A stretch of 64,000 nt of DNA, taken from contig NZ_SJEE01000003.1 of NCBI RefSeq assembly GCF_006937785.1, forward strand, positions 62,001 to 126,000, read 5' to 3'. How positions within the stretch are numbered: the first letter of the stretch is position 1; every line of letters begins with the position of its first letter. The DNA is from Pseudanabaena sp. UWO311. GTDB taxonomy: Bacteria; Cyanobacteriota; Cyanobacteriia; Pseudanabaenales; Pseudanabaenaceae. The notes under the pieces were generated by a model. It ran no database searches. It saw nothing but the letters and a program-made list of their open reading frames with translations, and was not told the DNA's origin. The translations under genes were made by a program, and so were the position numbers. Positions 19,551-38,311 of this stretch are shown in pieces.

Positions 19551-22500
19551 ATGAAACTACCCCGTCGCTATATTTGTTTATCCTGTGCCTGTGCTTTGAG
19601 CTATTTCTCTGCTGCACTCTCGGCTTCAGCACAGATTGTTCCTGATGCGACTTTGCCTATAAATTCTACAGTGACGACGACGGGGCAAGTTCATACGATT
19701 GATGGCGGTACGACGAGTGGCGTTAATCTCTATCACAGTTTTCAAGACTTCTCGGTTCCGACGAATAACACGGCGCATTTTAATAATGCTGCACAGGTTC
19801 AGAATGTGTTGACGAGGGTGACGGGTAATTCTGTTTCTAATATTGATGGGTTGATTAAGGCGAATGGGAATGCGAATTTATATTTGCTGAATCCAAATGG
19901 GATCGCGTTTGGGGCTAATGCGAAGTTAGATATTGGTGGTACTTTTGTTGGTTCTACGGCGAATAGTTTTAAGTTTACTGATGGTAGCGAGTTTAGTGCG
20001 ACAAATCCTCAGGCTCCGCCTTTGTTGACGATAGATATTACTCCTGGGGTGCAGTATGGGACTAGTAATCAGGGGGCGACGATTAGCAATTTTGGTAATT
20101 TGTCGGCGGGTCAGGATTTGGGTTTGAATGCGGATAGGTTGGGTTTGCAGGGGGCTTTGCGATCGGGGAGAGATTTGACGCTGCAAGCTCAGGACTCGGT
20201 GAAGATTCGGGATACTGTGACAACTCCATTTTGGGCTGTGGCGGGTCGCGATTTGCTGGTGCAGGGAAATCAATCTGTTGATATTTTTACTCTGAATAAT
20301 GTCAATAGTGGGTTTTGGTCGGGTGGGAATATGGTGTTGCGATCGCAGAATCCTGTAATTGGAGACGCTCATTTCTATGCTGGTCGAGATTTGAAAATTG
20401 AAAAGTTGGATGGAAGCGTTGGTAATTTACTTAGTCCTAACGATCCAATAATTTTGGCGAGTGGTAATGTGACTTTCGGAGACTATACAGGGGCTTCGCT
20501 CCATATTTTAGCGGGGGGAAGTGTGACTCTCGGTTTTGTCACGATTGATAGTACTGGAACACAAGATACGACTATCAATCCAAATAATCCATCCCCGTTT
20601 TTGGCGAGCCTAGCCACATTTACTTGGACTGACTACAAAGCTGTACTAAATAGTGATGGATCGGTTAAGGAAGTTATACCAGTTCAGACTCCTATTACGA
20701 TTGATGGTAGTACTCAGGCGACTTTGGATGTACGTGCTGGAGTGGATTGGTCGCTGTTGGGTGGTTTGCCGACTAGTCCAATAATTTTTGTGGCAATCAC
20801 ACCTGATCCTACCTATTCCAGTCCTCCAGTCAGTGCAGATATTACTGTGTTTGGTCAAATCGTTCGACCAAGTGGATTAGTTTTGTTGACTAACCAATTC
20901 AGCCCCAATACTCTAAACGGCACGATCTTCGCTGGAGTAGATACTAGTACATCAGTTGCAGAGGCAAACGGAGGGGATATTCGAGTCTATGGACGGGGAG
21001 ATATTATGGTTTCTTCAAATTCGTCCTCTATCGCAGATACTGGCAATGCAGGGAATGGAGGAACAATTTCTGTGGTTTCCAACTTTGGTAATATCACGAC
21101 AGCAGGATTTTTTGGATTGGAATCGTCTTCTGGCTCTTACACTGGCACTACGGGAAATGGAGGAACCATTTCCTTAGCTTCCAACTTTGGCAATATTACA
21201 TTAGCTCCTTATTCGTATTTGCTGGTGAATTCTGGCACTGCGGGAAATGGAGGGACAATCTCTCTGGTCTCCAACTTTGGTAATATCACGTTAGATGATA
21301 GTTCGAAATTGATTTCATCCTCCGACGCGGGATTTTATCGTTGGCGAAGTTTTAATGATCCAGTATATGTTTATAGCGGCTATGCTGTGGATTCAGGGAA
21401 TGGAGGCACAATTTTCTTAGCTTCTAACTCAGGTGATATCAAGATGAATGGCGGTACCGAATTTTTTTCCGCGCAATTAAATTCTTCCTCGAAAAATGGA
21501 TATAATAGTAGGAATGGGGGACTAATTTCTATCGCATCCAACTCAGGCAATATAATAGGCTCTTATACATCGATTGACTCGTCATCGCAAACGTCCTTTG
21601 GAAATACTGGGAATGGAGGGGCTATTTCCTTAGCCTCCAACTCAGGCAATATTATCATGACAGGAAGTTTTTTAGGATTGGCGAACTCGTCATCGAAAAC
21701 GGATTCTGGAAATGCTGGGAATGGAGGCGCGATTTCCCTATCCTCCAATTCAGGTGATATTATCATAGCAGGATATTTATTTGCAACCTCATCATCAAAC
21801 GGAAATACTGGGGATGGAGGGGCTATTTCCTTAATCTCCAATTCTGGCAATATCAAACTGAATGATTTTACAATCTTGGATTCTTCCACTCTATCCTACG
21901 GTACAGGTAATATAGGAGGTGGAGGGGCAATTTCTCTAGTTTCCAATTCGGGGAATATTATACTGGATGATATAAACTTGATCTCGACTTCGGAATCGGG
22001 AAATGGCATTGATGGGAATGGAGGAGCAATTTCCTTAACTACCTACTCTGGCGATATTACTACGTTTAGTTCATACTTGGCCTCGTACTCAATTGGCACG
22101 GCAAACGGAGGTGAGATCTCCTTAACTTCTTACTCTGGTAATATTACGTTGGGTAGAGATTCTATCTTGTACTCAGGCTCTTTGGGGTCAGGAAATAGTG
22201 GAATAATAACTTTAGCCTCCACCTTCGGCAATATTACGTTAGGCGAATATTCTAGCTTGGATTCGTATTCTTTATCAAACGGCTTGGATTATGCAGGGAA
22301 TGGTGGAACAATTTTCGTAACCTCCAACTACGGTAATATTACGTTAAATAATTCGTCCTTGAAATCTTTTTCGTACTCGGATTCTGGTAATGCTGGGAAT
22401 GGAGGATCAATATTCCTCTCTGCCCCCAATGGCAACATTAGCAGTTTCCCCGACAGATCTTCAGTATATTCTTTTACAGTGTCTTTAGCTGGTCTAACAA

Positions 22501-24638
22501 GTGGTAATGGCGGTAACATTACATTAGAAGCAAAATCCGTAATGAGTAATCTGGAGTTTTTTACCCAATCCTCTTCTGCGACAGCAGGTATATTCAAAAT
22601 CAACGGGTTAGGAAATTTAGCTATCACCAATTTTCAGATTAGCACAAGTAAGGAAGTAACTATCAAAGTTAATTTCGGAGATATTACCTTTGATACTGGT
22701 GAAATTGGTAGATCGGGGGACGTAGATATTATAGGATTAGGGAGCCTCGCCTTTGACAATACCCTCATCAATACTGCCACACAAGGAACAGATCCTGCTG
22801 GCAATATTTCCATCACTAGCCCCAGTTTCGTAACCTTCCAAAACAATAGTCAAATCCTTAGTAACAGCAATAACATAGGGAATGCTGGAAGTATTACAGT
22901 TAAAGCAGATCAAGGCATCACACTCAAAGACAATAGTCAAATAACTGCCACAACTAATGGACAAGGCAAAGCAGGAGATATTCTGCTTAATTCCCCTGTA
23001 CTAACAATTACAGGCGGTTCGCAAGTATTAGCAGAAACCAATAACGATGGAGTAGGGGGCAGCATTACTGTCAATGCTCCAACATCCGTTAATCTGATAC
23101 GTATCCTAGATGCCTTCCCAGTACTCTCTGTCCAAACCAGTAAAGCAGGTAAAGCAGGTAACATTCTCATTAATACGCCCACTCTCAACCTCTCAGATCA
23201 AGCAAGAATCACTGCCACCGCCACCGCTACTTCCACTAATACCGAAGGAGGCGGAAGCATCACGCTTAATGCATCGACTATGAATCTCTTTGGCACAGTC
23301 GGAGTATTTGCCGAAACCCAAGGAATCGCGCCCGCAGGCACACTCTTTCTCAATCCCTACAGTAAAGATACAGCACTCAGTCTTGCTCTCACTCTCAACT
23401 CCCAGATTTCTGCATCAACATCAGGACAAGGTAATGGTGGCAACTTATTCGTCACCGCCCCGCAATCGATTAATGTTTTAGGCAGTGGCAAACTTGCTGT
23501 TGAGACATCAGGAATAGGCAACGCAGGAAACATCAGCTTTTCCACCCAAAACCTCACCCTCACTGATGGAGTCTTAGTTTCTGCTTCCACTGCAGGAACA
23601 GGGAAAGCAGGAGATATCTCTGTTAAAGCCAATAACTTCACACTTTCTAATGGATCTAAAATTCTAACCACAACATCTGGGGTTGGTAACTCAGGCACAA
23701 TTAAAGTAAATGTCGCGAATAACATCATTCTCCAAGGTAACGGCACAGGTTTATTTTCTGACACCGTCAAAGGCTCAAGCGGTAATGGTGGCAATATTAA
23801 TATCGATCCACAGCTTGTAATTCTGAAAGATGGAGCAAAAATCGCTGTTGGCAGCCTTGGCACAGGCATCGGCGGCAACATTGATATAATTTCCAATTAC
23901 CTCACTCTCCTCAACGGTTCCTCTATCACCGCCGAAACCGCCAGCACCGATGGAGGCAACCTCAACCTCAACATCCCCGCAGTTCTACTCCTCCGCTACG
24001 GCAGCCAAATCAGCACCACCGCAGGCACAGCCAACGCAGGCGGCAACGGCGGCAATATCAACATCACTGCTGGATTCATCGTTGGAGTCAAAGGCGAAGA
24101 TAGCGATATCTTTGCTAACGCATTTAGGGGAAATGGCGGTAACGTCAACATCACTACTAATGGTATCTATGGACTAGAGTTCCGTCCGAGTCTGACTTCT
24201 TTTAGCGATATCACGGCAAGTTCCCAATTTGGTTTACAAGGGAGCGTCCTCGTGACCACCCCAGGCATCGATCCCAGTCGCGGACTAACCACATTACCCC
24301 TCAACCTCGCCGACCCATCCAAACAAGTCAATCAAAGCTGTGTCATTGGAGGCAAACTAGCAAATCGCAACAATAGCTTTACCATCTCTGGAAAAGGAGG
24401 AGTACCCAAGAGTCCCAGTGATGCAGCATCTAGCAATCAGGTTCTAGTAGAGCTATCAGATCCAGTAACTAGCAGCATCAGTCAAACCAATACAACAGAA
24501 CAAAAAACAGAAGCAACTCCAGAGACACCTACCCGATTAGTAGAAGCAAATACAATAATTCGTCGCAATGGTTCAATAGAGTTAGTCTCAGCCTTTGCTC
24601 CCCTCAGTCCTGCTATACCTCAACTTGCCTGTCAGTAA
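19551..24638 (+). CDS. Two-partner-secretion exoprotein E
   Basis: 1695-residue paralogue, the longest of the five. Signal peptide (ending SASA), TPS domain, and then a segment closest to exoprotein A ([45 protein letters not shown]). The middle is a long run of GNGG(T/A)IS(L/V)(A/V)SN(F/S)GNI units with serine-rich linkers. The C-terminal region is the family consensus ending IPQLACQ, with no GLFA tail. The stop codon is only 18 bases before the CHAT protein start, so the two are probably co-transcribed. Exported surface protein by family inference. Confidence 0.93.
21048..22420 (+). repeat. Tandem GNGG-serine repeats in exoprotein E
   Basis: More than a dozen imperfect in-frame units encoding GNGG(T/A)IS(L/F)xSNxGNI(T/I/K)L followed by serine-rich linkers. 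It is the longest such array in the cluster; its units differ in length, which fits repeated gain and loss. Confidence 0.7.
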
Positions 24639-24656
24639 CAACAAAAGAGAAAAACT

Positions 24657-27467
24657 ATGTCACTTTGGAAATCCATCTTAAAGATAAAACTCAAAATCGG
24701 TAAGTTCCTAGGCTATGCCAGCATCGCAACCTGCACAACCCTACTAGCAATACTCGCAGGATGGAACCCTCAACCAAGTATCGCCAACCCTGCCCAAAAC
24801 TCCCCAAAAGTCATGACAGATATTGTGATGACCACCTCATCAACAAATCCATCAGCACTAATTGAAACAGGCAAACAACAATACCAAAACGGACAATACA
24901 CGATCGCGATCGCCACATGGCAGCAAGCCCTTGATATATACACAAAACAAAGCGATCGCCTCAATCAAGCAGTTGCTTTCAACAATTTAGCCCTAGCCTA
25001 TCAACAACTAGGTCAATGGACAGAAGCAAATCAGGCGATTGCCAATAGTTTAAAAATTCTGCAAGCCGATCCCCAACAGCTAAAACTACTTGCCCAAGCC
25101 CAAAATATCCAAGGCAACATCCAACTCGCCCAAGGTCAAGCTCAAGCCGCACTCACCACTTGGCAAAAAGCAACCGCAACCTACGAGCAAATTGGCGACA
25201 AAGACGGAGCCATCCGCAGCAGGATTAATCAAAGTCAAGCCATGCGATCGCTAGGTTTATATCCCAAGGCAAAAGAAACCCTCACCCAAATCCTCAAAGA
25301 TAACCTCGACTCAACGTCAAAAGAGAAACTCGCCCAAATACTCAGCGATCGCCTCAAGCAATTAATAACAAATCGCCCTGACGCAACTATTTTAGACAGC
25401 GAAAAAGAAAATAGCATTAGCGATTTCATCCAAGTACTCAAAGACACCCCCGACTCAGCTCTTAAAGCTTCCCTACTTTTGAACCTCGGCGATACCCTCC
25501 AACTCAACAGCGATCTCCCAGAAGCATTGCAAGCCTTAGAAAACAGCATTGCGATCGCGCAGAAATTAAACAATACGCCAACCCTTGCTGAAGCCCTCCT
25601 CAGTATCGGTAATATCGCCAAAAGCCAAATAAAAGATGAGAATCTCAACGATCCCATCGAGAAACAGAGCGATCGGCAACAACTAATTGCGCAAGCGACT
25701 AGTAAATATCAGCAAGCAGTGAGTTTAGCCATCTCACCACTCCAAAAAGTCCAAGTACAGCTCAACCAATTACAACTCCAGATTGCAGTAAAGCAAATTG
25801 ATACAGCGCGACTATTAGCAGCCGAGCTCCAATCTGAACTACCCAAAATTTCGCCTAGCCATGACGCGATCTACGCAAGAATCAACTTTGTCCAAAGTTG
25901 GCTCAAACTCAATCTAACTGCCAAAGATCTCGAAGTCGCCGATCAAATAATCGCCGTCGCCGCCCAACAAGCCAGAGACATGGGCAATCCTAGAGCTGAA
26001 TCTTATGCGATCGGTTATCAGGGACATCTCGCCGAACAAAAACAACTGCTTACAGAAGCCCAAAGATATACCGAAAAAGCCCTCGTCATCGCTCAAACCA
26101 ATAATGCCTCCGACATCTCCTATCAATGGCAATGGCAACTCGGACGATTGCTAGCTGCTAAAGGTGAGACTAAACAAGCGATCGTTGCCTATAGCGAAGC
26201 TGTCAGCACGCTTACTTCCATTCGGGGCGAGCTCGTATCTAGTAACGCAGACGTTCAATTTTCTTTTAGTGAAAGTATTGAGCCAGTCTATCGACAGCTT
26301 GTAACATTGCTCCTGACCCATGACAAAGACAAAGAAGTCAGTCAAGACAATCTCAAAGAGGCTCGTAAAGTAATCGAGTCACTGCAACTAGCGGAATTAG
26401 ATAACTTCTTTAAAGAAGCCTGTCTTACAGGTAAATCCACGCAAATTGATGAAGTTGATCGTCAAGCAGCCGTTGTTTACCCAATTATTCTGCCCGAAAG
26501 TATCGAAGTTGTGATTTCTCTCCCAGACAAAGAGCGGACTTTACTTCACAAAACCTCAAGGATTGCTCAGAAAGATCTTGAAATCCTTTTGGGTAACCTT
26601 CGACAAAAACTAAGCCGTACCGCCCTTGAGTCTGGAACTAAAAAAGCCTCTCAGGAAGTCTACGATCTCCTGCTTGGAAAAGAAATAGAAGCAAAACTCA
26701 AGGAAAAAGATATCAAAACCTTGGCATTTGTTCTTGATGGATCTCTGAGAAACTTACCAATGGCTATCCTTTACGACGGTAATCAATACTTGATTGAAAA
26801 ATACAATCTCGCCCTTACCCCTGGATTACAACTCCTCGATCCTCGTCCGTTAAAACGCCAAAAGTTAGAAGTATTCGTCGGTGGAGTAAGCGAGGAAACC
26901 CAGAAATTTAATGCATTACCAAATGTCGAGAATGAGTTGAAACAGATATCGTCGATCGTGAGCACTCAACCACCGCTTCTTAATCAGAGCTTCACTAGTC
27001 TAGCAATCCAAAATCAAATAAGTCTAATTCCCTATAGAGTCGTTCATTTAGCTACTCATGGACAATTTAGTTCTGATCTCAATGAAACCTATGTGTTGAC
27101 ATGGGACGATCGCCTTGATGTCAGGGAACTTGGAGAACTACTGCAAACTAAAGCCCAAGATAGTAGAGTTCCCATTGAACTATTAGTTCTTAGTGCCTGT
27201 AAAACTGCGAAAGGAGATAAACGCGCTGCTTTAGGATTAGCAGGAATGGCAATCCGTTCGGGAGCGAGGAGTACGATCGCTAGCTTATGGTCTGTGGAGG
27301 ATAGTGCAACAGCTAAATTTATGGAAATTTTTTATCAGGAACTAGCAAAAACTGGAACGACGAAGGCTGACGCTTTACGCAACGCCCAGATTAGCCTTCT
27401 CAAGAATTCTTCGTTTAGGCATCCGTTTTATTGGTCGCCTTTCGTTTTAATTGGGAACTGGTTATGA
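24657..27467 (+). CDS. TPR-CHAT domain protein (caspase-like peptidase)
   Basis: 936 residues. A hydrophobic N-terminal segment (about 19-38) suggests export or membrane anchoring. Residues about 60-520 are helical TPR repeats (YQNGQYTIAIATWQQALDIY, AFNNLALAYQQLGQWTEA). The C-terminal third is a CHAT domain, a clan CD cysteine-peptidase fold related to caspases and separase: HLATHG with catalytic His 801 and LVLSACKTA with catalytic Cys 848, then the usual LAGMAIRSGARSTIASLW and a HPFYWSPFVLIGNW terminus. Both catalytic residues are present. It follows the exoprotein genes by 18 bases. CHAT-TPR proteins near TPS exoproteins are a recurrent cyanobacterial arrangement; a role in processing or sensing the exoproteins is inference. 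Confidence 0.93.
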   Translation: MSLWKSILKIKLKIGKFLGYASIATCTTLLAILAGWNPQPSIANPAQNSPKVMTDIVMTTSSTNPSALIETGKQQYQNGQYTIAIATWQQALDIYTKQSDRLNQAVAFNNLALAYQQLGQWTEANQAIANSLKILQADPQQLKLLAQAQNIQGNIQLAQGQAQAALTTWQKATATYEQIGDKDGAIRSRINQSQAMRSLGLYPKAKETLTQILKDNLDSTSKEKLAQILSDRLKQLITNRPDATILDSEKENSISDFIQVLKDTPDSALKASLLLNLGDTLQLNSDLPEALQALENSIAIAQKLNNTPTLAEALLSIGNIAKSQIKDENLNDPIEKQSDRQQLIAQATSKYQQAVSLAISPLQKVQVQLNQLQLQIAVKQIDTARLLAAELQSELPKISPSHDAIYARINFVQSWLKLNLTAKDLEVADQIIAVAAQQARDMGNPRAESYAIGYQGHLAEQKQLLTEAQRYTEKALVIAQTNNASDISYQWQWQLGRLLAAKGETKQAIVAYSEAVSTLTSIRGELVSSNADVQFSFSESIEPVYRQLVTLLLTHDKDKEVSQDNLKEARKVIESLQLAELDNFFKEACLTGKSTQIDEVDRQAAVVYPIILPESIEVVISLPDKERTLLHKTSRIAQKDLEILLGNLRQKLSRTALESGTKKASQEVYDLLLGKEIEAKLKEKDIKTLAFVLDGSLRNLPMAILYDGNQYLIEKYNLALTPGLQLLDPRPLKRQKLEVFVGGVSEETQKFNALPNVENELKQISSIVSTQPPLLNQSFTSLAIQNQISLIPYRVVHLATHGQFSSDLNETYVLTWDDRLDVRELGELLQTKAQDSRVPIELLVLSACKTAKGDKRAALGLAGMAIRSGARSTIASLWSVEDSATAKFMEIFYQELAKTGTTKADALRNAQISLLKNSSFRHPFYWSPFVLIGNWL

Positions 27468-28622: not shown

Positions 28623-30314
28623 TTACTGTTCAGCAATATTATCAATTTTTTCACGGATTGATAGCTGGACTAGAGCGCGAATTAGCGAAAATCCACAGAA
28701 AAAAGCACCTGTAAAGGCAGCGATCGCCCAGCCAGCATAAGCAGTAGTACCAATTAATAGTACGGCTCCAACTAAAGCCAAGAAGCCTGTTAGACAGGCA
28801 TAGATTAAAGCTTTAACAGCAATGTTAATTCTTTTGAGAGTGCGATCGCTTTCGGAAGACTTGACCTGAATCATCAACTCGCCACGCTCGATTCTCTCTT
28901 CCAACCGTTCTAATAAAATTTCCATGCGACTGGGCTTATTGAGTTGATAAATCAGAAAATCTTTTGCTTGTTGAGCCAATGCTCCTAAAGTATTACCCCG
29001 ACCTTTAGTCAGCACAATGCTTTTCACAAAGGGCTGGGCAGCGGTGGTAAAGTTATATTCTGGATCGAGAATTCTGGCAATCCCGTCAAGAGTGGTGAGG
29101 GACTTGAGGAGATAGGTCATTTGGGGAGGCAAACGGAAAGGTTGCTTCTCGAATATGGCTACCACTTCACCTTTAATTTGCTCGAACTCATAGATATTCA
29201 CTGGTCTTTCGGTGAAACGATCTAACACAAATTTTAACATTCGTTTAATCGGACTCATATCCGCGATCGGTTCGATAAACCCCATGCTCAGCAGGCTGTC
29301 AACAACTTCGTTGGTATCTTTACGCAGCACCGCAAAGAAAGTCTTCACCATTTGATCCTTTGCCATAGTTTTGACTTCTGCCATCATGCCGTAGTCATAG
29401 AAAATCAAACTTCCACTAGGACTAACAGCTAAATTGCCAGGGTGGGGATCGGCATGAAAGAAGCCATCTTGGAGCAGTTGTTTGAGATAACAACATATTC
29501 CTAATTGATTAATTTCTTTGGGATTCAATCCACAAGCTTCTAAGGCTTGGCGATCGTCTATTTTGATGCCAGGAACATACTCTAAGGTCAAAACCACTGA
29601 AGTGGAATAGTCCCAATAAATTTTTGGGATAACAATGCGCGGATAGCCTTCAAAATTTTTGCGAAAGCGATCGGCATTACCTCCTTCGATCGCATAATCA
29701 ATTTCTTGATAAAGAATAGTGAAAAATTCTTGATAAATTCCTTCTAGATTGTATTTGCGTGTCCAAGCAAAATAGCGGCGAAATACTTTGAGAAGTTTAC
29801 CAACCGCAAGTAAATCAAGGTCGAATAGTTTTTTTAACCCCGGACGTTGGACTTTGACGACAACCTCTTCGCCACTATATAAAGTAGCTCGATGTACTTG
29901 CCCAAGGCTAGCGGCTGCAAGAGGAATTTCGTCAAAGTCTCGATAAATCGCATAAAGAGATTTTCCGAGTTCGAGTTCGATAATATCTCTGGCTTCTTTG
30001 GCGCTGAATGCTGGCACTTTGTCCTGAAGTTGCGCCAAAGTACTAATGTATTCGGGTGGCAACAAATCGACGCGAGTGGATAGGGATTGACCGATTTTGA
30101 TAAATGTTGGTCCTAGTTCGAGCATATTGCGAACTAACCATTCCGCTCTTTTGCTGCGCGTCCGTGATGTATTGTCTTGCCAAAATTTATCCCACCATAT
30201 AAAAAACAGGAATGTAAACGCAGCTAAGAATACCTCACGTTGACGGGCTAGTGAAGAACTTTTGCTTCTTTGCCAGCGTAGCTTTTTGTATGGTAATTGG
30301 GCGATCGCAGACAT
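28623..30314 (-). CDS. ABC1/UbiB (AarF) family atypical kinase
   Basis: 563 residues, usual length for the cyanobacterial and plastid ABC1K family. It has the signature KIGQSLSTR (KxGQ) near residue 75, the P-loop-like and lysine region KVQRPGLK (about 153), EIDYAIEGGNADRF, hinge LEYVPGIKI, the catalytic ADPHPGNLA (about 287) and the metal site IFYDYGMMAE (about 304). Two hydrophobic segments near residues 500-550 suggest C-terminal membrane anchoring. Family members act in prenylquinone metabolism and membrane stress; exact substrate unknown. Transcribed alone, divergent from the coiled-coil gene across 335 bases (30315-30649) in which I see no other feature. Confidence 0.93.
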   Translation of the reverse strand: MSAIAQLPYKKLRWQRSKSSSLARQREVFLAAFTFLFFIWWDKFWQDNTSRTRSKRAEWLVRNMLELGPTFIKIGQSLSTRVDLLPPEYISTLAQLQDKVPAFSAKEARDIIELELGKSLYAIYRDFDEIPLAAASLGQVHRATLYSGEEVVVKVQRPGLKKLFDLDLLAVGKLLKVFRRYFAWTRKYNLEGIYQEFFTILYQEIDYAIEGGNADRFRKNFEGYPRIVIPKIYWDYSTSVVLTLEYVPGIKIDDRQALEACGLNPKEINQLGICCYLKQLLQDGFFHADPHPGNLAVSPSGSLIFYDYGMMAEVKTMAKDQMVKTFFAVLRKDTNEVVDSLLSMGFIEPIADMSPIKRMLKFVLDRFTERPVNIYEFEQIKGEVVAIFEKQPFRLPPQMTYLLKSLTTLDGIARILDPEYNFTTAAQPFVKSIVLTKGRGNTLGALAQQAKDFLIYQLNKPSRMEILLERLEERIERGELMIQVKSSESDRTLKRINIAVKALIYACLTGFLALVGAVLLIGTTAYAGWAIAAFTGAFFCGFSLIRALVQLSIREKIDNIAEQ

Positions 30315-30649
30315 ATTTTGCTAATAGTAGCTATGCCAACTAGCATTGCTTTGTTTATATTACCCAATTAATGCCGAAAATGTAGAGTTAGAGCAAAGCA
30401 TTGCTAGCACTGTTCTCAAAAGACAGCAAAAATGGCAAGACTTTGCTATGGTTATTTGTATTGGCGATCGCCAGAAACATTATGCATATTGAGCTTTTCA
30501 CATTGTCCTTGCCAATGTAAAAAACTCAAGCCAAAATCAGTAGAGGTTTTATGGTTTTCAAGTTGTCGTAGATAATTTGAAAACATTGATATGTAAATCC
30601 TTGGGCTAAAACTTTAATATTTTTTCAAATCATTCCTAGAGGTAACCTA

Positions 30650-31333
30650 ATGGGTGAAATCACCAGAGATGAGATCCGCGAACGTTTAGGCAATATTGAT
30701 CAAATTCGCGATATCATTTTCGGCGCACATTTGCGCGAATACACGAGTCGGTTAGATAAGGCTGAGTCGGATATTGCAGCTATGCAGCAAGATGTCCGTG
30801 ATCGCCTTAGCGACTTAAAGTCAGTTTTAGCAAGTGAGTTAAGAGCTGCGGTCGAGTCCATTGATAAGCGACTAAAATCGATTAGTGCATCAACTCAAGA
30901 AGAAACCGCTGACCTTCGTCAACAGTTTGATCGCATTAACCGCAAGTTTACCAGTAGTATTGAAACTCTTGATGAGACTGTTGAGGCTCAGCGGGTATCG
31001 CTACGGGAAGAACTCGCCCAAACTAGAGATAATTTGCAAAATGATAATCGTGAACTACGATCGCTAGTTTTAGAAGAGCTAGACCGTCATTTCTCGATTC
31101 TTCGTGAAGACAAGCTCTCCAAAGACGATATGGCCGAGTTGCTATTTGAGCTAGGTATGAGACTCAAAGGTTCTGAGTTTGTCCCTGAGCTACGCGAGGC
31201 GGCTGAAGAAAAGGTCGAAGAGAAGTATGAGCGGGTGAGTATCCTCGATTCTGCGCCAAAAGTCTCAACTAGTGCGGAGTCAACTAGCCCTGCAACTAGA
31301 ACTACATCACGCACTTCTAAAGCCAAGCCATAA
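30650..31333 (+). CDS. Conserved coiled-coil protein, unknown function
   Basis: 227 residues, acidic, no signal peptide or membrane segment. Nearly all of residues 20-155 have heptad-like charged/hydrophobic spacing (RLDKAESDIAAMQQDV, LRQQFDRINRKF, LRDNL-type segments), predicting a long coiled coil. A short conserved domain follows (LSKDDMAELLFELGMRLKG), then a Ser/Thr-rich tail. The ATG is preceded by AGAGGTAA. I do not recognise a characterised family. A terminator follows at once (31353-31395). It precedes the OmpA/GTPase pair but is separated from it by two hairpins. Confidence 0.8.
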   Translation: MGEITRDEIRERLGNIDQIRDIIFGAHLREYTSRLDKAESDIAAMQQDVRDRLSDLKSVLASELRAAVESIDKRLKSISASTQEETADLRQQFDRINRKFTSSIETLDETVEAQRVSLREELAQTRDNLQNDNRELRSLVLEELDRHFSILREDKLSKDDMAELLFELGMRLKGSEFVPELREAAEEKVEEKYERVSILDSAPKVSTSAESTSPATRTTSRTSKAKP

Positions 31334-31352
31334 ATTCCATAAAAAGTAAACG

Positions 31353-31395
31353 CAAATGCAAAACAAGGGTCTTCAGAGCCTTTTTTTGCATTTGT
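31353..31395 (+). terminator. Rho-independent terminator after coiled-coil gene
   Basis: The outer arms CAAATGCAAAA and TTTTGCATTTG enclose AGGGTCTTCAGAGCCT and a T run, 20 bases after the stop codon. Confidence 0.75.
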
Positions 31396-31404
31396 GATAT
31401 GGCG

Positions 31405-31455
31405 AACCCAAATAAATAAAGGCGGCGCTTTGCTCCGCCCTTATTTATTTGGGTT
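31405..31455. repeat. Long intergenic hairpin, GGCGGCGCTTTG core
   Basis: Arms AACCCAAATAAATAA and TTATTTATTTGGGTT are perfectly complementary around a GGCGG...CCGCC core. Member of the variable-arm hairpin family described in the findings. Confidence 0.75.
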
Positions 31456-31518
31456 TTATGTTCTAAGCAAAACTTTCATTGCTATAGTACAAAAATACTG
31501 TCATTGTGCAAAAGTAGT

Positions 31519-34404
31519 ATGTCAGAGCAAAAAGAAGAGCAACAGGGTAACTTCCAGAATAAAGCGCTCAGTGATGTTGAGAAGTTTTTACTCCTGCTCT
31601 CCGATCTAAATATTATTGACTCTGAAAAACCTAAAAATCTTCAAAATCTGCAACGCATAGATGATTCAGGGCTATTAAATATTGAGCATAAAGATGATAA
31701 ATATATAGACATTAAGTCTAGTAAGTCCATCTCCAGACGATTGGAGATCGATCAGGAATTGTCAGCTCAGTCGAAACCTAAATATTTAGATAGGAAATCT
31801 TTAGATGTAGAGCGATCGCCAAATGGACAGAACTCATTGGCTAAGCCCATACAAAAATCTCCAGATGAAGATTTTTTAGATATAGCGCGATCGCCTTCTA
31901 TATACCCTTTCCCTAGTCTGTTAGATGAGCTACCATTTTTAAGAGACATTCAGCCTGCTAATTTAAATGGGTTTGATCAGAATCATGATAAAGATCGACA
32001 TCATGAAAATTTAAATCGCTCAAATCATAATGACAATGTAATCTTAGAAAAAATTGAATCCTCGACAACGGAAGAAGTAGAGACGGTAAATCTTATCCAA
32101 GAGCTTCTTTTTGGCAGTGAAAATGACCAGGTTTCATCTTCACAGATTTCTCAAATAGCATCATTGCAAACCCCTCAGAAAAAATCTCAATCCATTACTC
32201 AATTATCTTCTCAAGCGACTTCTCAGAATCCATCTCCATCTGTCACTGCTCCTAGATCCCAATCACATTCACAAAACAATGATTTAGAAGAATTATCAGA
32301 GGAGGATGATAAAGCAATTCATATGTTACAGGATATTCTGGTTGTTCCAGAGCTAGAAGACTTACGAAACTTCAAAATTGCAGTTGAGCAAAAGCTGGGA
32401 ATAGTCGAAAGTCAGGTTAATAATCCTGCAATCATGAACAAAATTGAAGGGTTGGAAAGTTTATTGCAAAATGCTTCTCGCCGACTTTCAGTAATGGATG
32501 ATGAACAGAGCAATATTCCAATGGAGATTGATAAGGTTAGCGATCGCGTTGCTCAGTTAGAAAATCAAATTAATGAACCAGCAGAATTAGTTCAGCTTTT
32601 GTTGCCAATTATTGCTGAGTTGCTCAGCATCAAAGCAGATCAGGCTAGAGAAGAGATGTGTCAGGCGATAACGCCAATTATTGCTGAGGTGATTTTTGAG
32701 CGATCGCAACTAGATCGATTGTCCATGAGCCATGCGATCGCCGATCTTTTGCCGAATGCGATTAGTGAACAAATTCGTAGTAACCCTGAGCAAATTGCTA
32801 AAGCGCTTGGACCAGAAGTTGGCGCAGCAATTCGCGAACAAATAAGACTTGATCGTGATGAAATCGTTGATGCGCTTGCGCCAGAAATGGGCGCGGCCAT
32901 TAAGCAACAGATTGTGCTTGAACGTGATGCAATGGTTGACGCGCTCTATCCAGTAATTGGAAATACGATCGCTAAATATTTCGCTGAAGCAATTCGTTCG
33001 ATCAATCAAAAAGTTGAGCAGACTTTCAGTGTAGAAGGAGTACAACGAAAAATCCGCGCCAAAATGCAAGGTGTTTCTGAAGCCGAATTAATTCTCAAAG
33101 AATCTGTCCCTTTTGAAATTCAAGCCATCTTCCTGATCCACAATCTTTCGGGATTAGTAATGATTGACATCCAAAAAAGTGACCTTGATGATTTAATCGA
33201 TCCCATTGACTCAGATATGCTAGCAGGGATGTTAACAGCGATTCGGAGCTTTGCTAATGAATGCATGTCCAGATCGGAAAGTACGACAGAACTTGATGCG
33301 ATTAACTACAGTGGCTCCAAAATATTGCTAGAAGTTGCGGGATATTGCTATCTTGCGGTAATCATTCGGGGAGAACCTGACTCAGCCTTAGTAAACAAGA
33401 TTCGCGATGTATTTGGGCGGATTGTGCAAGTCTATGGCGATCGCTTTAAAGAGTTCGACGGCGATCCCAGTATGGTTCCAATGGAGGCTGAAATTGAACT
33501 CAAGACCTTAATGGAATTTGAACATGCTAAAAAATCCAAACAATCACCCAAAACTTTGATTTTTATGAGCTTAGGCATACTTGCTTTAATTTTGGTGCCA
33601 ATAGGAATTTTTCAATATCAATCTAATCGCGATCGCCAACTTGAAGCTAAAGTTTTAGAAGCCTTAACCAGTACGCCCGAACTTGCCGTCTATCGGCTTA
33701 ATGTTGCTGCCGATGGCGATCGGCTGAAATTAACAGGCAAATTGCCAAATCAAAATTTACGCGATCGCGCCCTCCAAGTAGCGATCTCTGCCTCAAAAGC
33801 AGAAATAGCAAACGGTAAGATTAACAATAATATCTATACCGTCAATATCCCGCCCGACCCTGAACTCGTGGCGAACGAAGTCCAGCGGCTTACTAAAGCC
33901 CTAAACTACACTCAGGGGGTGAATATCCAGAGCCAGTTTAAAGATGGGCAAGTAACAATTACTGGACAGATTGAACAGCCGAGCATGATGCCAAAAATTA
34001 CGCAGGCTTTTACTAAAATTGCAGGAATTAATATAGTTAGTAATGGTGTTACGATCTTGACTCCAAAGCTGTCAACACGTATCTACTTTCCCTTGTGGGT
34101 GACAACACTCGAACCATCTGACAACGAAAAGCTAATAGAGGTTAAGTCGTTTCTCGATCTTTACCCAGATTACAATATTAAGATTTTTGTCAAAAATGAT
34201 AATATTGGCGATCCCTCCATCAACTATCAATTAGGGATGAAACGATCTCAAACGGTTCGAGCTGCGCTATTACAAAAAGGCGTAAATGCTAAACGTTTAC
34301 ATATTTCTGGGATAATAGATACATCTACTCATCAACCCTCTGACCAAATGTTAAGATGGGTAGAATTTCAGCCGATTCTAAAGCCAATGTCCGTATCTAA
34401 TTAA
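31519..34404 (+). CDS. Membrane protein: roadblock-like cytosolic region, one TM, BON-like and OmpA-like C-terminus
   Basis: 961 residues from the ATG at 31519, preferred over an in-frame TTG at 31504. Residues 1-260 are polar and low complexity (Ser/Gln/Asp-rich), followed by coiled-coil segments. Residues about 400-500 hold repeated helical units (ALGPEVGAAIREQIRLDRDE, ALAPEMGAAIKQQIVLERDA). Residues about 535-670 (AIFLIHNLSGLVMIDI, DSDMLAGMLTAIRSFANECM, GYCYLAVIIRGEPD) resemble a roadblock/longin-type sensory fold. A single membrane span lies at about 678-700. Then two BON-like repeats and an OmpA-like segment (NYQLGMKRSQTVRAALLQKG). The expected topology is N-inside with the OmpA part outside, reaching peptidoglycan. 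The stop codon abuts the next gene, a small GTPase. Domain calls beyond the TM and OmpA parts are tentative. Confidence 0.8.
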   Translation: MSEQKEEQQGNFQNKALSDVEKFLLLLSDLNIIDSEKPKNLQNLQRIDDSGLLNIEHKDDKYIDIKSSKSISRRLEIDQELSAQSKPKYLDRKSLDVERSPNGQNSLAKPIQKSPDEDFLDIARSPSIYPFPSLLDELPFLRDIQPANLNGFDQNHDKDRHHENLNRSNHNDNVILEKIESSTTEEVETVNLIQELLFGSENDQVSSSQISQIASLQTPQKKSQSITQLSSQATSQNPSPSVTAPRSQSHSQNNDLEELSEEDDKAIHMLQDILVVPELEDLRNFKIAVEQKLGIVESQVNNPAIMNKIEGLESLLQNASRRLSVMDDEQSNIPMEIDKVSDRVAQLENQINEPAELVQLLLPIIAELLSIKADQAREEMCQAITPIIAEVIFERSQLDRLSMSHAIADLLPNAISEQIRSNPEQIAKALGPEVGAAIREQIRLDRDEIVDALAPEMGAAIKQQIVLERDAMVDALYPVIGNTIAKYFAEAIRSINQKVEQTFSVEGVQRKIRAKMQGVSEAELILKESVPFEIQAIFLIHNLSGLVMIDIQKSDLDDLIDPIDSDMLAGMLTAIRSFANECMSRSESTTELDAINYSGSKILLEVAGYCYLAVIIRGEPDSALVNKIRDVFGRIVQVYGDRFKEFDGDPSMVPMEAEIELKTLMEFEHAKKSKQSPKTLIFMSLGILALILVPIGIFQYQSNRDRQLEAKVLEALTSTPELAVYRLNVAADGDRLKLTGKLPNQNLRDRALQVAISASKAEIANGKINNNIYTVNIPPDPELVANEVQRLTKALNYTQGVNIQSQFKDGQVTITGQIEQPSMMPKITQAFTKIAGINIVSNGVTILTPKLSTRIYFPLWVTTLEPSDNEKLIEVKSFLDLYPDYNIKIFVKNDNIGDPSINYQLGMKRSQTVRAALLQKGVNAKRLHISGIIDTSTHQPSDQMLRWVEFQPILKPMSVSN

Positions 34405-34959
34405 ATGCATTCTCCTGCAAAAGTAGTTTCTCAAAAAATATGTCTTATCGGTGATTTTGGCGTTGGCAAAACCAGCCTAATTCGTCAGTTTGTCGATCGT
34501 CAATTTAGTGATAAATACTTGTCTACTGTTGGCGTAAAAATCTCTCGCAAGTTAGTGTCTATTAATAACTTGTCTGATAACACGCCAGTAGATTTAAAAC
34601 AATTGCAATTGATTGTCTGGGATATTGAAGGGAGTACAAGATTTAAGGCGATCGCTCCTAGCTACCTACAGGGAGCAAAAGGAGCCCTAATAGTTGGGGA
34701 TGTAACAAGGCAATCAAGTATGCAAAGCCTCAAAGATCATGTGCAACTTTTTCAATCAATAAATCCCACATCTAGTGTAATTATTTCATTAAATAAAGTT
34801 GATTTGATTGATAAAAATGAAAGAGAGAATCTATTGCACTCTATCCCAACTGAATTCGCTAATCTCAACATACCTATATATATAACTTCCGCTAAAACAG
34901 GTGAAGGTGTAGATGAAACATTCCAAAAACTAGCTCGTCAAATGCTAATGCTAGAATAG
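34405..34959 (+). CDS. Ras/Rab-like small GTPase
   Basis: 184 residues, the size of a stand-alone small GTPase. Motifs: P-loop GDFGVGKT (16-23), switch I threonine in LSTVGVK (Thr 41), G3 WDIEGS (72-77), G4 NKVD (130-133), G5 SAK (162-164). In G3 the residue matching the catalytic Gln of Ras (Q61) is Ser 77, so intrinsic hydrolysis is probably weak and a partner would be needed. There is no C-terminal prenylation motif. The ATG follows directly after the TAA of the OmpA/roadblock-like protein with no gap, so the two are translationally linked and likely work together. Compare MglA/MglB-type bacterial GTPase-roadblock pairs; the specific pathway is unknown. Confidence 0.92.
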   Translation: MHSPAKVVSQKICLIGDFGVGKTSLIRQFVDRQFSDKYLSTVGVKISRKLVSINNLSDNTPVDLKQLQLIVWDIEGSTRFKAIAPSYLQGAKGALIVGDVTRQSSMQSLKDHVQLFQSINPTSSVIISLNKVDLIDKNERENLLHSIPTEFANLNIPIYITSAKTGEGVDETFQKLARQMLMLE

Positions 34960-35050
34960 GTTAATCTCTGCTGTTAAATATTTGTAATTCTATGATTAAA
35001 AATATGTTTGGCAAATAACAATTCGGTATTCTTTTACATCATGAGCTGCT

Positions 35051-37531
35051 ATGAAACAGTCACAACTTCTCAAAAAACTTCTCACTGCTTCAGAGCGATC
35101 GTTCATTATGGTTGATCGCCAGCTTCTGATTACTGATACTTCATTCGGAGCCGAGCGATTTTCTGAGTATCCCTACGAGCCATTGCTAAATAAGGATATT
35201 CGGAATGCATTTCCAGAAACAATTGGTTTAGAAGAATCTTTTAATAGTATTTGGCTTAACCAAGCTACTAGTTTTACGATTAAAGGGATTTGTCGTTCTA
35301 CTAATCCCAATAAACCTCTCTATTTTGATTTTTATATCATCGGAACAAATGAATTAGAAGAGGCAGATAAAAATATCATCATCTGTATTGAAGATGTCAC
35401 AGATATAATGATCATGTCTCAAGCATTAATGCAAAGGGCAAATGAGTCTGATTTAATGGCTAATGCCTTGCAAAGATCAAATGAATATATTGATAAAATC
35501 ATTTCTGCAATGGCAGATGCGTTGATAGTTACTGATCATCAAGGCAGAATTAAAACTGTAAATCCTGCGGCTATCAATTTATTTGGTTATACCCAAAAAG
35601 AGCTAATTGATCGTTCGATTTCTTCATTATTTAAAAATCCCAATCAACTAGAGTTAATTCATCAAAGTCATCTTGAAAATCAATCTGTTAGTGAACAATC
35701 TCTAGATAGCGATCGCTATTTTACAAACCTTGAAATATTATGCGTATCGAAAAACAAAGAAGAGATTTTGATCGCATTTTCTTGCTCAACTATACAAAAC
35801 CAACAAATCGAATACAGTATTGAATCAAATGACAGCTTTGTTTATGTTGGTCGTGATATTACAGAACTAAAACGTAAAGAACAAGAGTTATTAGCTGCCA
35901 GACAATTTGCCGAGCAATCTGCCAAAGCTAAAAGTATCTTCTTGGCAAATATGAGTCATGAAATTCGCACTCCCATGAATGGTGTTTTGGGAATGACCGA
36001 CCTATTGCTTGGTACATCTTTAGATGACCACCAGCAGGACTTTGTCGAAAATATTCGACTGAGTGGCAATCTATTACTCAGTTTGATTAATCGTATTTTG
36101 GATTTATCAAAGTTAGAAGAAGGTGAATTGGAATTAGAAAATTCGCCATTTAATTTAGAGCAATGCATAGAAGAAATCCTTGAACTTTTTGCTTTGCAAG
36201 TGCATAATCATGGATTGGAACTTAATGCCTGTTTTGAAGAAGGTTTACCTAATTTCCTAATGGCTGATACGGTTAGATTTCGCCAAATCATGATGAATTT
36301 AATTGGTAATGCCGTTAAGTTTACTACTGAAGGTGAAATCATTGTGCAAGTCGAACGCGATCGCGCTTTTGAGCAGACTTTAACAATGTCACAACCTCAA
36401 ATCTATTTACGGTTCTCTGTTATCGATACAGGTATTGGCATTGATCCCGCTAATCAGAACAAGCTTTTTAAACCATTTTCGCAAGTTGATACTTCCACCC
36501 ATCGTCGTTTTGGTGGAACTGGATTAGGATTAGCGATTAGTCGTCAGTTAGTGGAGTTAATGCAAGGCGAGATTGGTGTATCCAGTCCAGTGATAGATGG
36601 AAAAGGTACTTGTTTTTGGTTCAGAATTCCTTTTACTCTTCAGCCACCCCAAGATCAGGAATTTTTGAATTATGATTCGCAAGCTTTAAGTAATCGAAAT
36701 ATTTTAGTGATTTCATCAAATAAACATTCTCGCTACACAATTCGTCATTACCTCACTAAACTAGTTGCAGAAATTTATGAAGCATCAAATATTAGTGAAG
36801 CGCTCGCTTATTTGAACTCAAAAAAGCAAGTTGATGTAGCATTAATCGATTGGAGTTTAACTGGTTTTAATGGATCGCAATTAGTTAAACAAATTCATGG
36901 GATAGAGAACTTTGCCGACTTACCCCTTATAGCGGTGTTAACTGCAAATCGTCAAGGTGAAATCGAAACAGTTATTAATCAAGGTTTTTGTGGATATGTG
37001 ACAAAACCTTTCAAACAGCAACGATTATTAAAAGCAGTATTTTTGTCTTTGGGAATTGATCTTCCTGCTTTTGTAAATGATTCACTTTCTTCTAGTACAG
37101 TTGTTCCTGATCTTCGTAATAATTCTAAAGAGAAAGGTGGCTTAGAAAAGTTCAAAAACTTAAAAGTTCTATTGGCTGAAGACAATATTGTTAATCAGAA
37201 AGTTATAATGACGTATCTATCTCAACTAGGCTGTCAAGCAGAACTCGCTGAAAATGGAGAACAGGTATTGCAGTTAATGCAGACTAAAGATTACGACGTT
37301 GTTTTGATGGATTGTCAGATGCCTTTATTGGATGGATATGCAACTACTGAGAGCATTCGCCAACTCGAAGCTACTGCTGAATTATCTAAGCATGTCGTGA
37401 TCATCGCGATGACCGCTAATGCTTTTACAGAAGATCGTGATCGCTGTTTAGCAGTCGGAATGGATGATTTTCTGAGTAAACCGATCCGCAGGCAACAACT
37501 TAAGGAGACTCTTGAAAATTGGATTAGGTAA
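35051..37531 (+). CDS. Hybrid histidine kinase with PAS domains and two receiver domains
   Basis: 826 residues, no membrane span, so cytosolic. Residues 1-120 are PAS-like; a clear PAS follows at about 145-275 (ADALIVTDHQGRIKTVNPAA, LFGYTQKEL). HisKA has FLANMSHEIRTPMNG with phospho-His 303. HATPase_c has N box NLIGNAVKF (about 416), DTGIGID (about 459) and GGTGLGLAIS (about 488). Receiver 1 (about 550-670) keeps an Asp in ALIDWSLTG and the TKP lysine but lacks the usual acidic pair, reading ISSNK, so it may be a weak or pseudo-receiver. Receiver 2 (about 703-822) is canonical: LLAEDN, VLMDCQMPLLDG with Asp about 753, SKP. It lies 91 bases after the GTPase and 12 bases before cobK; whether it serves the GTPase system is open. 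Confidence 0.93.
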   Translation: MKQSQLLKKLLTASERSFIMVDRQLLITDTSFGAERFSEYPYEPLLNKDIRNAFPETIGLEESFNSIWLNQATSFTIKGICRSTNPNKPLYFDFYIIGTNELEEADKNIIICIEDVTDIMIMSQALMQRANESDLMANALQRSNEYIDKIISAMADALIVTDHQGRIKTVNPAAINLFGYTQKELIDRSISSLFKNPNQLELIHQSHLENQSVSEQSLDSDRYFTNLEILCVSKNKEEILIAFSCSTIQNQQIEYSIESNDSFVYVGRDITELKRKEQELLAARQFAEQSAKAKSIFLANMSHEIRTPMNGVLGMTDLLLGTSLDDHQQDFVENIRLSGNLLLSLINRILDLSKLEEGELELENSPFNLEQCIEEILELFALQVHNHGLELNACFEEGLPNFLMADTVRFRQIMMNLIGNAVKFTTEGEIIVQVERDRAFEQTLTMSQPQIYLRFSVIDTGIGIDPANQNKLFKPFSQVDTSTHRRFGGTGLGLAISRQLVELMQGEIGVSSPVIDGKGTCFWFRIPFTLQPPQDQEFLNYDSQALSNRNILVISSNKHSRYTIRHYLTKLVAEIYEASNISEALAYLNSKKQVDVALIDWSLTGFNGSQLVKQIHGIENFADLPLIAVLTANRQGEIETVINQGFCGYVTKPFKQQRLLKAVFLSLGIDLPAFVNDSLSSSTVVPDLRNNSKEKGGLEKFKNLKVLLAEDNIVNQKVIMTYLSQLGCQAELAENGEQVLQLMQTKDYDVVLMDCQMPLLDGYATTESIRQLEATAELSKHVVIIAMTANAFTEDRDRCLAVGMDDFLSKPIRRQQLKETLENWIR

Positions 37532-37543
37532 GCATCGGCTATC

Positions 37544-38311
37544 ATGAAAAAAGTTCTCATTTTAGGTGGCACTGGTGATGCTGTTAAACTTGCTGCGAAA
37601 CTGGCAACCATTCCCGAAATAGCAATAATTAGTTCTCTTGCGGGACGCACCAAAAAGCCCTCAGCCCTGGTTGGGGAAGTTCGTATCGGCGGATTTGGAG
37701 GAGCGGATGGATTAGCTAACTTCTTGAAAGAAAATGCTATAGATTTCCTGATCGATGCAACGCATCCCTGTGCGGGGCAAATCACCATGAATGGCGCGAT
37801 CGCAGTCAAAGCAGCTAACATTCCCCATCTCATGCTCGTTCGTCCACAATGGGAGAGAGTATCTGGCGATAATTGGATTGAAGTGGAAAGTGTGGCAGCA
37901 GCAGCTCAAGCTATTCCTGCATCTATAAATCGAGTATTTATTACATCAGGGAGACAACAACTAGAGCCATTTTTACAGCGATCGCAATTTCATCCAGAAA
38001 CTTGGTATTTAATGCGCTCCATCGATCCTCCTGACATTGAATTACCCAATAGTGAAGTACTACTTGAGCGAGGGCCATTTAGTTTAGAACAAGAACGCCA
38101 TTTATTGCGAAAATATCAGATTCAAGCGATTGTAAGTAAAAATAGTGGTGGTGATGCGACCTATGCCAAAATTATCGCCGCGAGAGAATTAGGAATTCCG
38201 ATTATTATGGTACAGCGTCCTGTAATGCCCGAAGGCGAAAAGGCAACAAGTATTGAAGCAACGATCTCATGGTTGAATCTAAAAACCTCAAAATTAGGTG
38301 GCGCTAAATAG
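37544..38311 (+). CDS. cobK: Cobalt-precorrin-6A reductase
   Basis: 255 residues, normal for CobK/CbiJ. It reduces precorrin-6A (or the cobalt form) with NADPH in cobalamin biosynthesis. Motifs: N-terminal LILGGTGDAVKLA, SSLAGRT, VRIGGFGGADGL, IDATHPCAGQITMNGA, RVFITSGRQQLEPF, LERGPFSLEQE, SKNSGGDATYAKI and the end VQRPVMPEG. It starts 12 bases after the hybrid kinase stop codon, so it may ride on that transcript. A hairpin overlaps its stop region. It is next to hemH and ho1, forming a small tetrapyrrole cluster. Confidence 0.93.
   Translation: MKKVLILGGTGDAVKLAAKLATIPEIAIISSLAGRTKKPSALVGEVRIGGFGGADGLANFLKENAIDFLIDATHPCAGQITMNGAIAVKAANIPHLMLVRPQWERVSGDNWIEVESVAAAAQAIPASINRVFITSGRQQLEPFLQRSQFHPETWYLMRSIDPPDIELPNSEVLLERGPFSLEQERHLLRKYQIQAIVSKNSGGDATYAKIIAARELGIPIIMVQRPVMPEGEKATSIEATISWLNLKTSKLGGAK

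Follow-up and report, generated by a model that had tools for sequence, protein, structure and literature searches.

A predicted longin-type domain in the membrane protein of a Group 1 Rup GTPase locus from Pseudanabaena sp. UWO311

The closest described relatives of the locus considered here are the systems built around Group 1 Rup GTPases, which were defined, with cyanobacterial members included, by Wuichet and Sogaard-Andersen in 2014 (PMC4316618). These GTPases are highly similar to eukaryotic Rab, Ran, Ras and Rho, and none had been experimentally characterised as of 2014; Bacteroidetes, Chloroflexi and gammaproteobacteria are further groups from which they have been reported. Their genes neighbour those of a coiled-coil protein, of a protein in which a domain of unknown function (DUF) is joined to a transmembrane (TM) segment and an OmpA domain, and of a signalling output, either a histidine kinase (HK) or a c-di-GMP enzyme. 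In the accessible text of that paper, an invariant glutamine is noted in the N-terminal region of the output, with action in trans suggested, and no Rup gene is coupled to MglB. The locus analyzed here is a four-gene unit within a 64,000-nucleotide stretch of DNA from the cyanobacterium Pseudanabaena sp. UWO311 (contig NZ_SJEE01000003.1, positions 62,001 to 126,000), referred to in its entirety as the window; positions are those of the window, and the four genes and their domains all lie on the + strand. The open reading frames (ORFs) of the window give the order coiled-coil protein, membrane protein, GTPase and hybrid kinase output. A longin-type domain is predicted in the membrane protein, and a dedicated PAS domain in the output.

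By gene content and motifs, the window holds a Group 1 Rup system. Its GTPase, at 184 aa and with motifs G1 to G5, falls within the 150-240 aa of that group and keeps the G3 Asp without the G3 Gln. The neighbours are a coiled-coil protein, a domain-TM-OmpA protein and an HK output, and the output carries Gln128, which we assume to be identical with the invariant residue of the published logo. No MglB is coupled to the locus; the genome's own two Roadblock/LC7 matches are on contig C38, and the window is on C27. A new layout is thus ruled out, and the original prediction, which knew of no described cyanobacterial system of this kind, was mistaken on that point, since the same four-gene arrangement is given, with cyanobacterial members, in PMC4316618. 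Shared with that description are a GTPase of less than 240 aa, the coiled coil, the domain-TM-OmpA protein and an output with an N-terminal Gln. In the accessible text of PMC4316618, however, the domain of the membrane protein is of unknown function and the N-terminus of the output is unnamed, whereas longin and PAS folds are predicted here, and the outputs are extended to adenylate/guanylate (A/G) cyclases and a PP2C phosphatase as well as to distal outputs. Neither a longin domain in Rup systems nor later work on Rup was found in the open-access literature searched.

Several other systems are comparable in part. MglA/MglB and the actinobacterial conservons (CvnA-D) likewise combine a small GTPase, a longin/roadblock-class protein and two-component signalling. 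MglB is a separate Roadblock/LC7 protein with no known membrane anchor. MglA keeps its Gln (GTPGQ in Groups 2-5, PMC4316618), whereas the Rup GTPases compared here mostly lack it and the window domain is unmatched by the Roadblock/LC7 family PF03259. The eukaryotic longin regulators of Rabs (TRAPP subunits, Mon1-Ccz1, DENN and Fuzzy-Inturned) likewise pair a longin fold, predicted in the present case, with a Rab/Ras-like GTPase. Unlike these, the window protein is bacterial, tethered to the envelope by its TM segment and OmpA-like end, and without a sequence match to them, and its exchange role is putative. YfiBNR of Pseudomonas aeruginosa has, to our knowledge, no GTPase and no longin domain, and its envelope protein is an outer-membrane lipoprotein. 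It does resemble the present locus in linking an OmpA-like envelope protein to cytosolic second-messenger control (PMC2837407, PMC4655355).

The reading favored here, with a probability of a little under 60%, is that a wall-held longin regulator acts on Rup and Rup on a PAS-fronted output, whose PAS glutamine closes the cycle. The OmpA-like end would fix the membrane regulator to peptidoglycan, with the longin-type domain facing the cytosol. That domain would recruit Rup and set its nucleotide state, most likely as an exchange factor or loading platform, by analogy with the longins that serve Rabs. Rup-GTP would engage the dedicated PAS domain of the output, altering the activity of the hybrid kinase. 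Hydrolysis by Rup would be aided in trans, with the conserved Gln of the PAS exit helix as the best candidate, and the effector would then also end the signal. It is from the comparisons below that we infer binding, the exchange and GTPase-activating protein (GAP) roles, wall sensing and the direction of the signal.

Gene content, co-conservation and co-occurrence are matters of direct observation, and the gene pair is conserved far beyond chance. Among 80 named loci (labelled L), the closest of 297 relatives found with the domain, the GTPase gene is the next one downstream of the longin gene in 77, at gaps of -44 to 468 bases, and 73 loci then have a PAS-fronted output. The exceptions for the GTPase are L080, L081 and L096, the last of which ends 91 bases on; in L081, a different kind of HK gene, HAMP-like by eye, has a one-base overlap with the start. 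The direct stop/start contact seen in the window is a local feature, with a gap of 0 in 10 of the 80 relatives. In 70 of the 80 loci, a homologue of the coiled-coil protein is encoded 5' of the longin gene (1.75 kb upstream in L088); of the 10 loci where it is missing there, five are cut off on that side, and L105 has it downstream instead. Alignment A2 comprises the window and 68 of the 80 loci, 12 having been dropped at >=93% identity and L081 restored. Alignment A3 comprises the window and 66 outputs, thinned at 92% identity from 71; outputs follow the GTPase in 74 of the 80 loci, and those of L087, L088 and L091 were excluded before thinning.

Beyond single loci, cyanobacterial genomes (labelled G) and plasmid records were covered. 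Across 244 cyanobacterial genomes, including that of the window, the longin domain (E <=1e-5) is present in 31 and the GTPase (E <=1e-15) in 32, with both in 30; these searches scored best first-look candidates only. Of the two, G195 has the longin only, and G105 and G143 the GTPase only, in G143 within a 951-aa frame. Fisher values for co-occurrence are 6e-35, with relatedness ignored. A GTPase gene lies within 2 kb downstream at 31 of 37 longin loci. Of 72,556 plasmids, four hold the longin and the same four the GTPase, one from Nostoc and three rhizobial; the Mesorhizobium genes run coiled coil, longin-OmpA, GTPase and A/G cyclase. It might be supposed that these genes are neighbours without shared function, in an order maintained by cyanobacterial descent only, as the loci are mostly cyanobacterial and the Fisher tests ignore relatedness. 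However, Mesorhizobium has the four genes in this order although its output enzyme is another one, the split locus of G078 retains coiled coil plus longin and GTPase plus PAS as pairs, and the distal PAS outputs track the GTPase, all of which makes this highly improbable.

The same distribution bears on whether the longin protein regulates Rup at all. It could instead be an effector or localiser, recruited by Rup-GTP or anchoring Rup and kinase at wall contacts, in either case without catalysis. Some longin-class proteins act outside GTPase regulation (PMC10933270), and three GTPase-PAS pairs (L125, L127 and L128) have no adjoining longin gene, so that GTPase and longin genes need not be neighbours. 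Against this, G033, G045 and G078 carry the longin elsewhere in the genome, which leaves G105 as the only real longin absence among these cases, and near-complete longin/GTPase co-occurrence in the 244 genomes suits either role. A non-catalytic longin is regarded as unlikely.

A divergent subtype of the locus is seen in L114-L118, L029, L030, L111 and L112. Its G3 motif reads WDLYGE in L029 and L030 and WDLAGE in the rhizobial L111 and L112. The divergent cyanobacterial longin-OmpA protein is shorter, at 589-604 aa, the rhizobial output is a cyclase, and a 372-376-aa kinase is encoded nearby in three of the five cyanobacterial loci. There is also a longer longin-OmpA paralogue (1204-1220 aa) with no adjoining Rup GTPase (L121, L122, L123 and G203 contig C13); the four genomes that have it belong to one family (f11), and three of them also hold the operon.

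Within the membrane protein, residues 533-669 (33115..33525) are predicted by an AF2 model, Foldseek and VIA-align to form a longin-type fold, and helices that are conserved directly ahead of this core occupy residues 470-532 (32926..33114; alignments A1 and A2 and the AF2 model). The AF2 run on residues 470-680 with 69 sequences gave a pLDDT of 76.5 and a pTM of 0.66, with elements in the order strand-strand-helix-three strands-two helices (b-b-a-b-b-b-a-a) and the conserved helices in front. The top Foldseek matches are adaptor sigma subunits, Sec22b, Ragulator/Rag and TRAPP subunits, three of them at E <=0.001, and the roadblock domains 3kye and MglC 7ct3 occur at lower ranks. VIA-align places Sec22b (1ifq_A) first, with Z 13.4, 126 residues aligned, 2.8 A and 6% identity, followed by TRAPP subunits, Vamp7, Ykt6, Fuzzy and AP sigma. 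Longins and longin-like subunits make up most of the best 50 VIA entries, at Z 9.8-13.4 over 100-139 residues. None of the 50 is a PAS domain, but since the list ends there, a fold missing from it does not count as evidence.

In a longin, a helix links strands 2 and 3 of a five-strand sheet and two more helices follow at the C-terminus; longins differ from roadblocks in having no roadblock-type N-terminal helix and in the presence of a second C-terminal helix (PMC10933270). The predicted model fits the longin topology, with five strands, a helix after strand 2 and two C-terminal helices, the second of which is spanned by the Sec22b alignment. Compared with Roadblock/LC7, it has helices before strand 1 and two, not a single one, after strand 5. 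Because the second C-terminal helix is present but so are the front helices, the domain is called longin-type here, with roadblock as the alternative.

At the level of sequence, the window domain has no match to PF03259, or to any other Pfam family, at E up to 5. PF03259 is absent from the 22 families matched by a second set of 30 members, one of which matches a longin family (E 0.0014), and is not among the 25 families listed of the 33 matched by the 69-member set. When the domain is aligned by hhalign with 30 cyanobacterial roadblocks, the probability is 2.5% and the pairwise E 0.018, yet the two are in register; its profile against PDB sequences gives only coiled-coil-like chance matches (E 0.049 or worse). 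Membership of Roadblock/LC7 by sequence is thus ruled out by the absent PF03259 match and the low hhalign probability. The domain looks nearer to longin than to Roadblock/LC7, although its sequence matches neither. The original prediction of a roadblock/longin-like region is therefore right as to class, in that the structure prediction it proposed for residues 535-670 returned a longin/roadblock-class fold by AF2, Foldseek and VIA-align, but the emphasis on roadblock is not upheld. With such a fold predicted and the gene pair widely conserved, its central proposal survives both of the comparisons that could have overturned it.

For the cytosolic domain, the model may have drawn a longin where the true fold is of PAS/GAF type or a new alpha-beta one. 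The alignment is shallow, pLDDT falls to 57-65 at the alpha-1/beta-3 junction, and longin and roadblock sequence profiles go unmatched, all of which would suit such an error. The mostly longin composition of the best VIA entries and the weak but in-register alignment with roadblocks argue against it, and it appears quite improbable. Aligned by hhalign, the longin and PAS profiles give only a helix match of 14 columns (E 0.032). The helix before longin strand 1 (33067-33099, QGVSEAELILK) resembles the PAS exit helix at 35432-35458 (QxANEANLLL), a likeness that is possibly a shared binding motif or else chance.

The rest of the membrane protein agrees with the original description of a cytosolic region, one span and an OmpA-like end, as judged by Pfam and hydropathy, and a BON domain lies between the last two. 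The 961-aa longin-TM-BON-OmpA protein (31519..34404; ORF, Pfam, NCBIfam and YiaD structure match) runs from an ATG at 31519 to a TAA at 34402-34404, with an alternative in-frame TTG 15 bases 5' of the ATG. Its sole strong hydrophobic peak is the TM segment at residues ~675-703 (33541..33627; Kyte-Doolittle 19-residue maximum 2.73, starting at residue 680), and two minor peaks reach 1.53 (at 355) and 1.42 (at 598). BON (PF04972) matches in two stretches (E 2.8e-10), the best of which covers residues 705-756 (33631..33786). For the OmpA-like domain at residues 862-931 (34102..34311), PF00691 gives E 5.4e-06 and 27.1 bits, just under the cut-off of 27.2; the NCBIfam YiaD and Pal models match at E 1e-10 and 4e-07, far under their cut-offs, and the YiaD structure matches as well. 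The protein has both the Asp and the Arg at positions that we take to be the diaminopimelate ligands of OmpA domains, and the Arg of this putative pocket is present in 81 of 81 homologues.

The Group 1 Rup Ras-like GTPase (34405..34959; PF00071, PDB match and motifs) begins with an ATG at 34405 that abuts the TAA of the membrane-protein gene, as the original prediction had described. It matches PF00071 (Ras) at 5.7e-29 and, as its best PDB match, Rab-1B at 5.7e-22. Its motifs are the P-loop GDFGVGKT, STVG, the G3 motif WDIEGS, NKVD and TSAK. Residues were counted in 78 sequences (77 loci and the window), at positions that presumably correspond to 12 and 61 in Ras numbering. Position 61 is Ser in 44, His in 24, Gln in six, Asn in two, and Arg and Lys in one each, so that the Ser noted earlier at the catalytic Gln position of the window (WDIEGS, where the G3 Asp is kept) belongs to a wider absence of Gln, in 72 of the 78. 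Position 12 is Phe in 74, including the window, and Tyr in four, and the rhizobial and divergent cyanobacterial GTPases have Phe12 too. Bulk at residue 12 impedes arginine-finger catalysis by RasGAPs, and GTPases that are independent of Gln61 (Rap and Rheb) use GAPs that bring Asn. With Gln61 missing and Phe at position 12, hydrolysis would probably need help in trans. The missing Gln is discussed in PMC4316618, and position 12 is not discussed in its accessible text; as far as the literature was searched, Phe or Tyr at this position in all 78 sequences appears to be a new observation for Rup GTPases.

That help could come from the longin domain itself, and this is the main rival reading: the domain would be a GAP like MglB, a dimer of which reorders Rup residues or lends a Gln, with the wall end tuning it and the PAS domain merely an effector. 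Longin and roadblock domains have a common GTPase-binding mode (PMC3521125, PMC10933270), and the longin gene adjoins that of the GTPase. Helix alpha-1 is the most conserved of the three core helices, with 12 of 20 positions at >=90% (43 of 134 over the whole domain, one of 23 in alpha-2 and six of nine in the short helix before strand 1). Gln552 of the longin core (residue 83 of the fragment) is invariant across all 69 rows of the main cyanobacterial group. MglB, however, positions the Gln and Arg of MglA itself (PMC4316618) and is therefore no precedent for supplying a missing Gln, which weakens the analogy with MglA/MglB drawn in the original prediction, and the Rup GTPases mostly have no Gln to position. 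The uniform Phe or Tyr at position 12 also speaks against a longin GAP, as does the replacement of Gln552 in the divergent cyanobacterial L029 and L030 and, by eye, in rhizobia, though those GTPases also lack the G3 Gln. A GAP role for the longin domain thus seems rather unlikely.

The output, a hybrid HK of 826 aa (35051..37531), starts 91 bases past the end of the GTPase gene, as had been stated earlier. Pfam identifies PAS, HisKA, HATPase and two receivers, and with the first PAS domain from an AF2 model the order is PAS-PAS-HisKA-HATPase-two receivers. The dedicated N-terminal PAS domain with its exit helix (35051..35497) is predicted by AF2 and by matches to PAS/LOV/PYP structures: the model of the first 150 kinase residues shows a PAS domain from which a long exit helix extends, and has a pLDDT of 85.3 and a pTM of 0.72, with a Foldseek E of 6.9e-06 and VIA Z up to 10.8. 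Pfam PAS_9 matches this domain weakly in 17 of 67 members and not in the window protein itself, and hhalign of PAS against roadblock gives no match. Among 20 chosen proteins that were scanned, the domain precedes HKs, A/G cyclases, GGDEF proteins and one SpoIIE (PP2C) phosphatase, and one output (L064) has PAS and GAF only. In L111 and L115 the front domain was recognised by alignment alone, the profile having missed both. As a dedicated adaptor fronting varied outputs, this predicted domain is new as far as the literature was searched, and it is testable.

Gln128 (codon 35432-35434) lies in the PAS exit helix and is present in 66 of 67 operonic rows, as is Glu132 of the same helix; both are found in five of five further aligned outputs, four of them divergent. 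Of 18 PAS copies that lie >6 kb from the GTPase or on another contig, 14 were fetched and 13 were readable over the helix, with Gln in 13 of 13 and Glu in 10 of 13. The PAS-helix Gln is kept in the L029/L030 group and in rhizobia, where longin Gln552 is replaced. On the alignments compared, the glutamine that is kept across all subgroups, like the one proposed in 2014, thus lies in the output protein. The PAS domain is present in 32 of the 244 genomes (E <=1e-15), 30 of which have the GTPase; it lies within 3.5 kb at 24 of 37 GTPase loci, and 16 of the 18 distal copies are in GTPase-bearing genomes, G195 and G197 being the exceptions. Because these co-occurrence data exceed mere adjacency, the PAS domain is the likely contact point with the GTPase.

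A number of observations weigh against the favored reading of a wall-held longin regulator and a PAS-fronted output. The longin model is of middling confidence, with a shallow cyanobacterial alignment (Neff 2.4) and a best Foldseek E of only 3.7e-4; the window domain has no match to the Pfam longin families at E up to 5, and just one of the 69 members has one (PF19036, E 0.014). The Asp of the putative diaminopimelate pocket is kept in just 50 of 81 homologues. The PAS Gln is not the sole candidate in the main group, given the invariant longin Gln552 and Gln18 of the coiled-coil protein, which is present in 68 of 71 rows and replaced in rhizobia; where a Gln is conserved within a coiled-coil helix, its role may be structural. 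L080 and L081 have no GTPase gene over >5 kb. Six of the 37 longin loci have none within 2 kb, namely G229, where the output gene intervenes, the split locus of G078, and four longer paralogues (1204-1220-aa frames). G195 has longin and PAS without the GTPase, G105 GTPase and PAS without the longin, and G197 PAS alone. A contig break may separate some of the apparently distal PAS copies from a GTPase that is in fact their neighbour, the copy on G167 C3 is a broken frame, and that of G135 is just past 6 kb.

The first gene of the unit (30650..31333) encodes a cytoplasmic coiled-coil protein of 227 aa, with homologues in the named loci; its coiled coil was judged from sequence and Pfam-type matches. 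The original prediction had taken the unit as 31519-34959, which places the membrane-protein and GTPase genes correctly and omits this one. A motif close to IRD[IL][LI]FG is kept in the rhizobial homologue (E 1.7e-18). Between the coiled-coil and longin genes, a long hairpin at 31405-31455 is a copy of a palindromic repeat whose 19-base core has 116 sites in the genome (62 + 54, <=2 mismatches) and none in a reversed control. An Rfam scan of 30000-38000 found no matches. Further upstream, 19551-27467 encodes a 1695-aa filamentous-haemagglutinin-like repeat protein and then a TPR protein of 936 aa whose C-terminus is CHAT-like (both named by eye). The setting of polarity had also been suggested for the locus, and no feature here points that way.

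Elsewhere in the same genome, on C38 at ~208-211 kb, two tandem, similar Roadblock/LC7 proteins (L119 and L120), each with a repeated 173-aa neighbour, are encoded with a small GTPase that has a TPGQ-type G3 and a protein that is PATAN-like by eye. By these features, this is a separate locus of the MglA/MglB type. As partners of Rup, its standalone roadblocks are ruled out because they lie on another contig beside another GTPase and because Rup genomes without a PF03259 match exist. In a 117-genome sample, eight such genomes (G002, G008, G024, G033, G039, G045, G062 and G066) were found; 64 genomes of the sample without a match are not named individually.

The assignment of a longin fold in Rup systems is, as far as the literature was searched, new, and as a prediction it is testable. 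An origin of longins from MglB-type domains has been proposed (PMC3521125), as has, alternatively, their differentiation in the ancestors of Asgard archaea (PMC10933270), and the assignment, if right, therefore bears on the origin of the longin-GTPase pairing. With the predicted longin, Rup gains a candidate regulator from the class of proteins that act on Rabs, and with the PAS adaptor a candidate effector and GAP. Purified fragments would allow either role to be checked. Tentatively, and with somewhat less confidence than the mechanism itself, bacteria may be taken to own a longin-Rab-like pair, in which a wall-tied longin regulator, Rup and one PAS adaptor lending a Gln serve interchangeable outputs (histidine kinases, adenylate/guanylate cyclases, diguanylate cyclases and PP2C phosphatases). 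If this is true, the longin-Rab pairing would extend past Asgard archaea and eukaryotes, Rup systems would be modular receptors and not single pathways, and one switch would link the state of the wall to several second messengers in bacteria.

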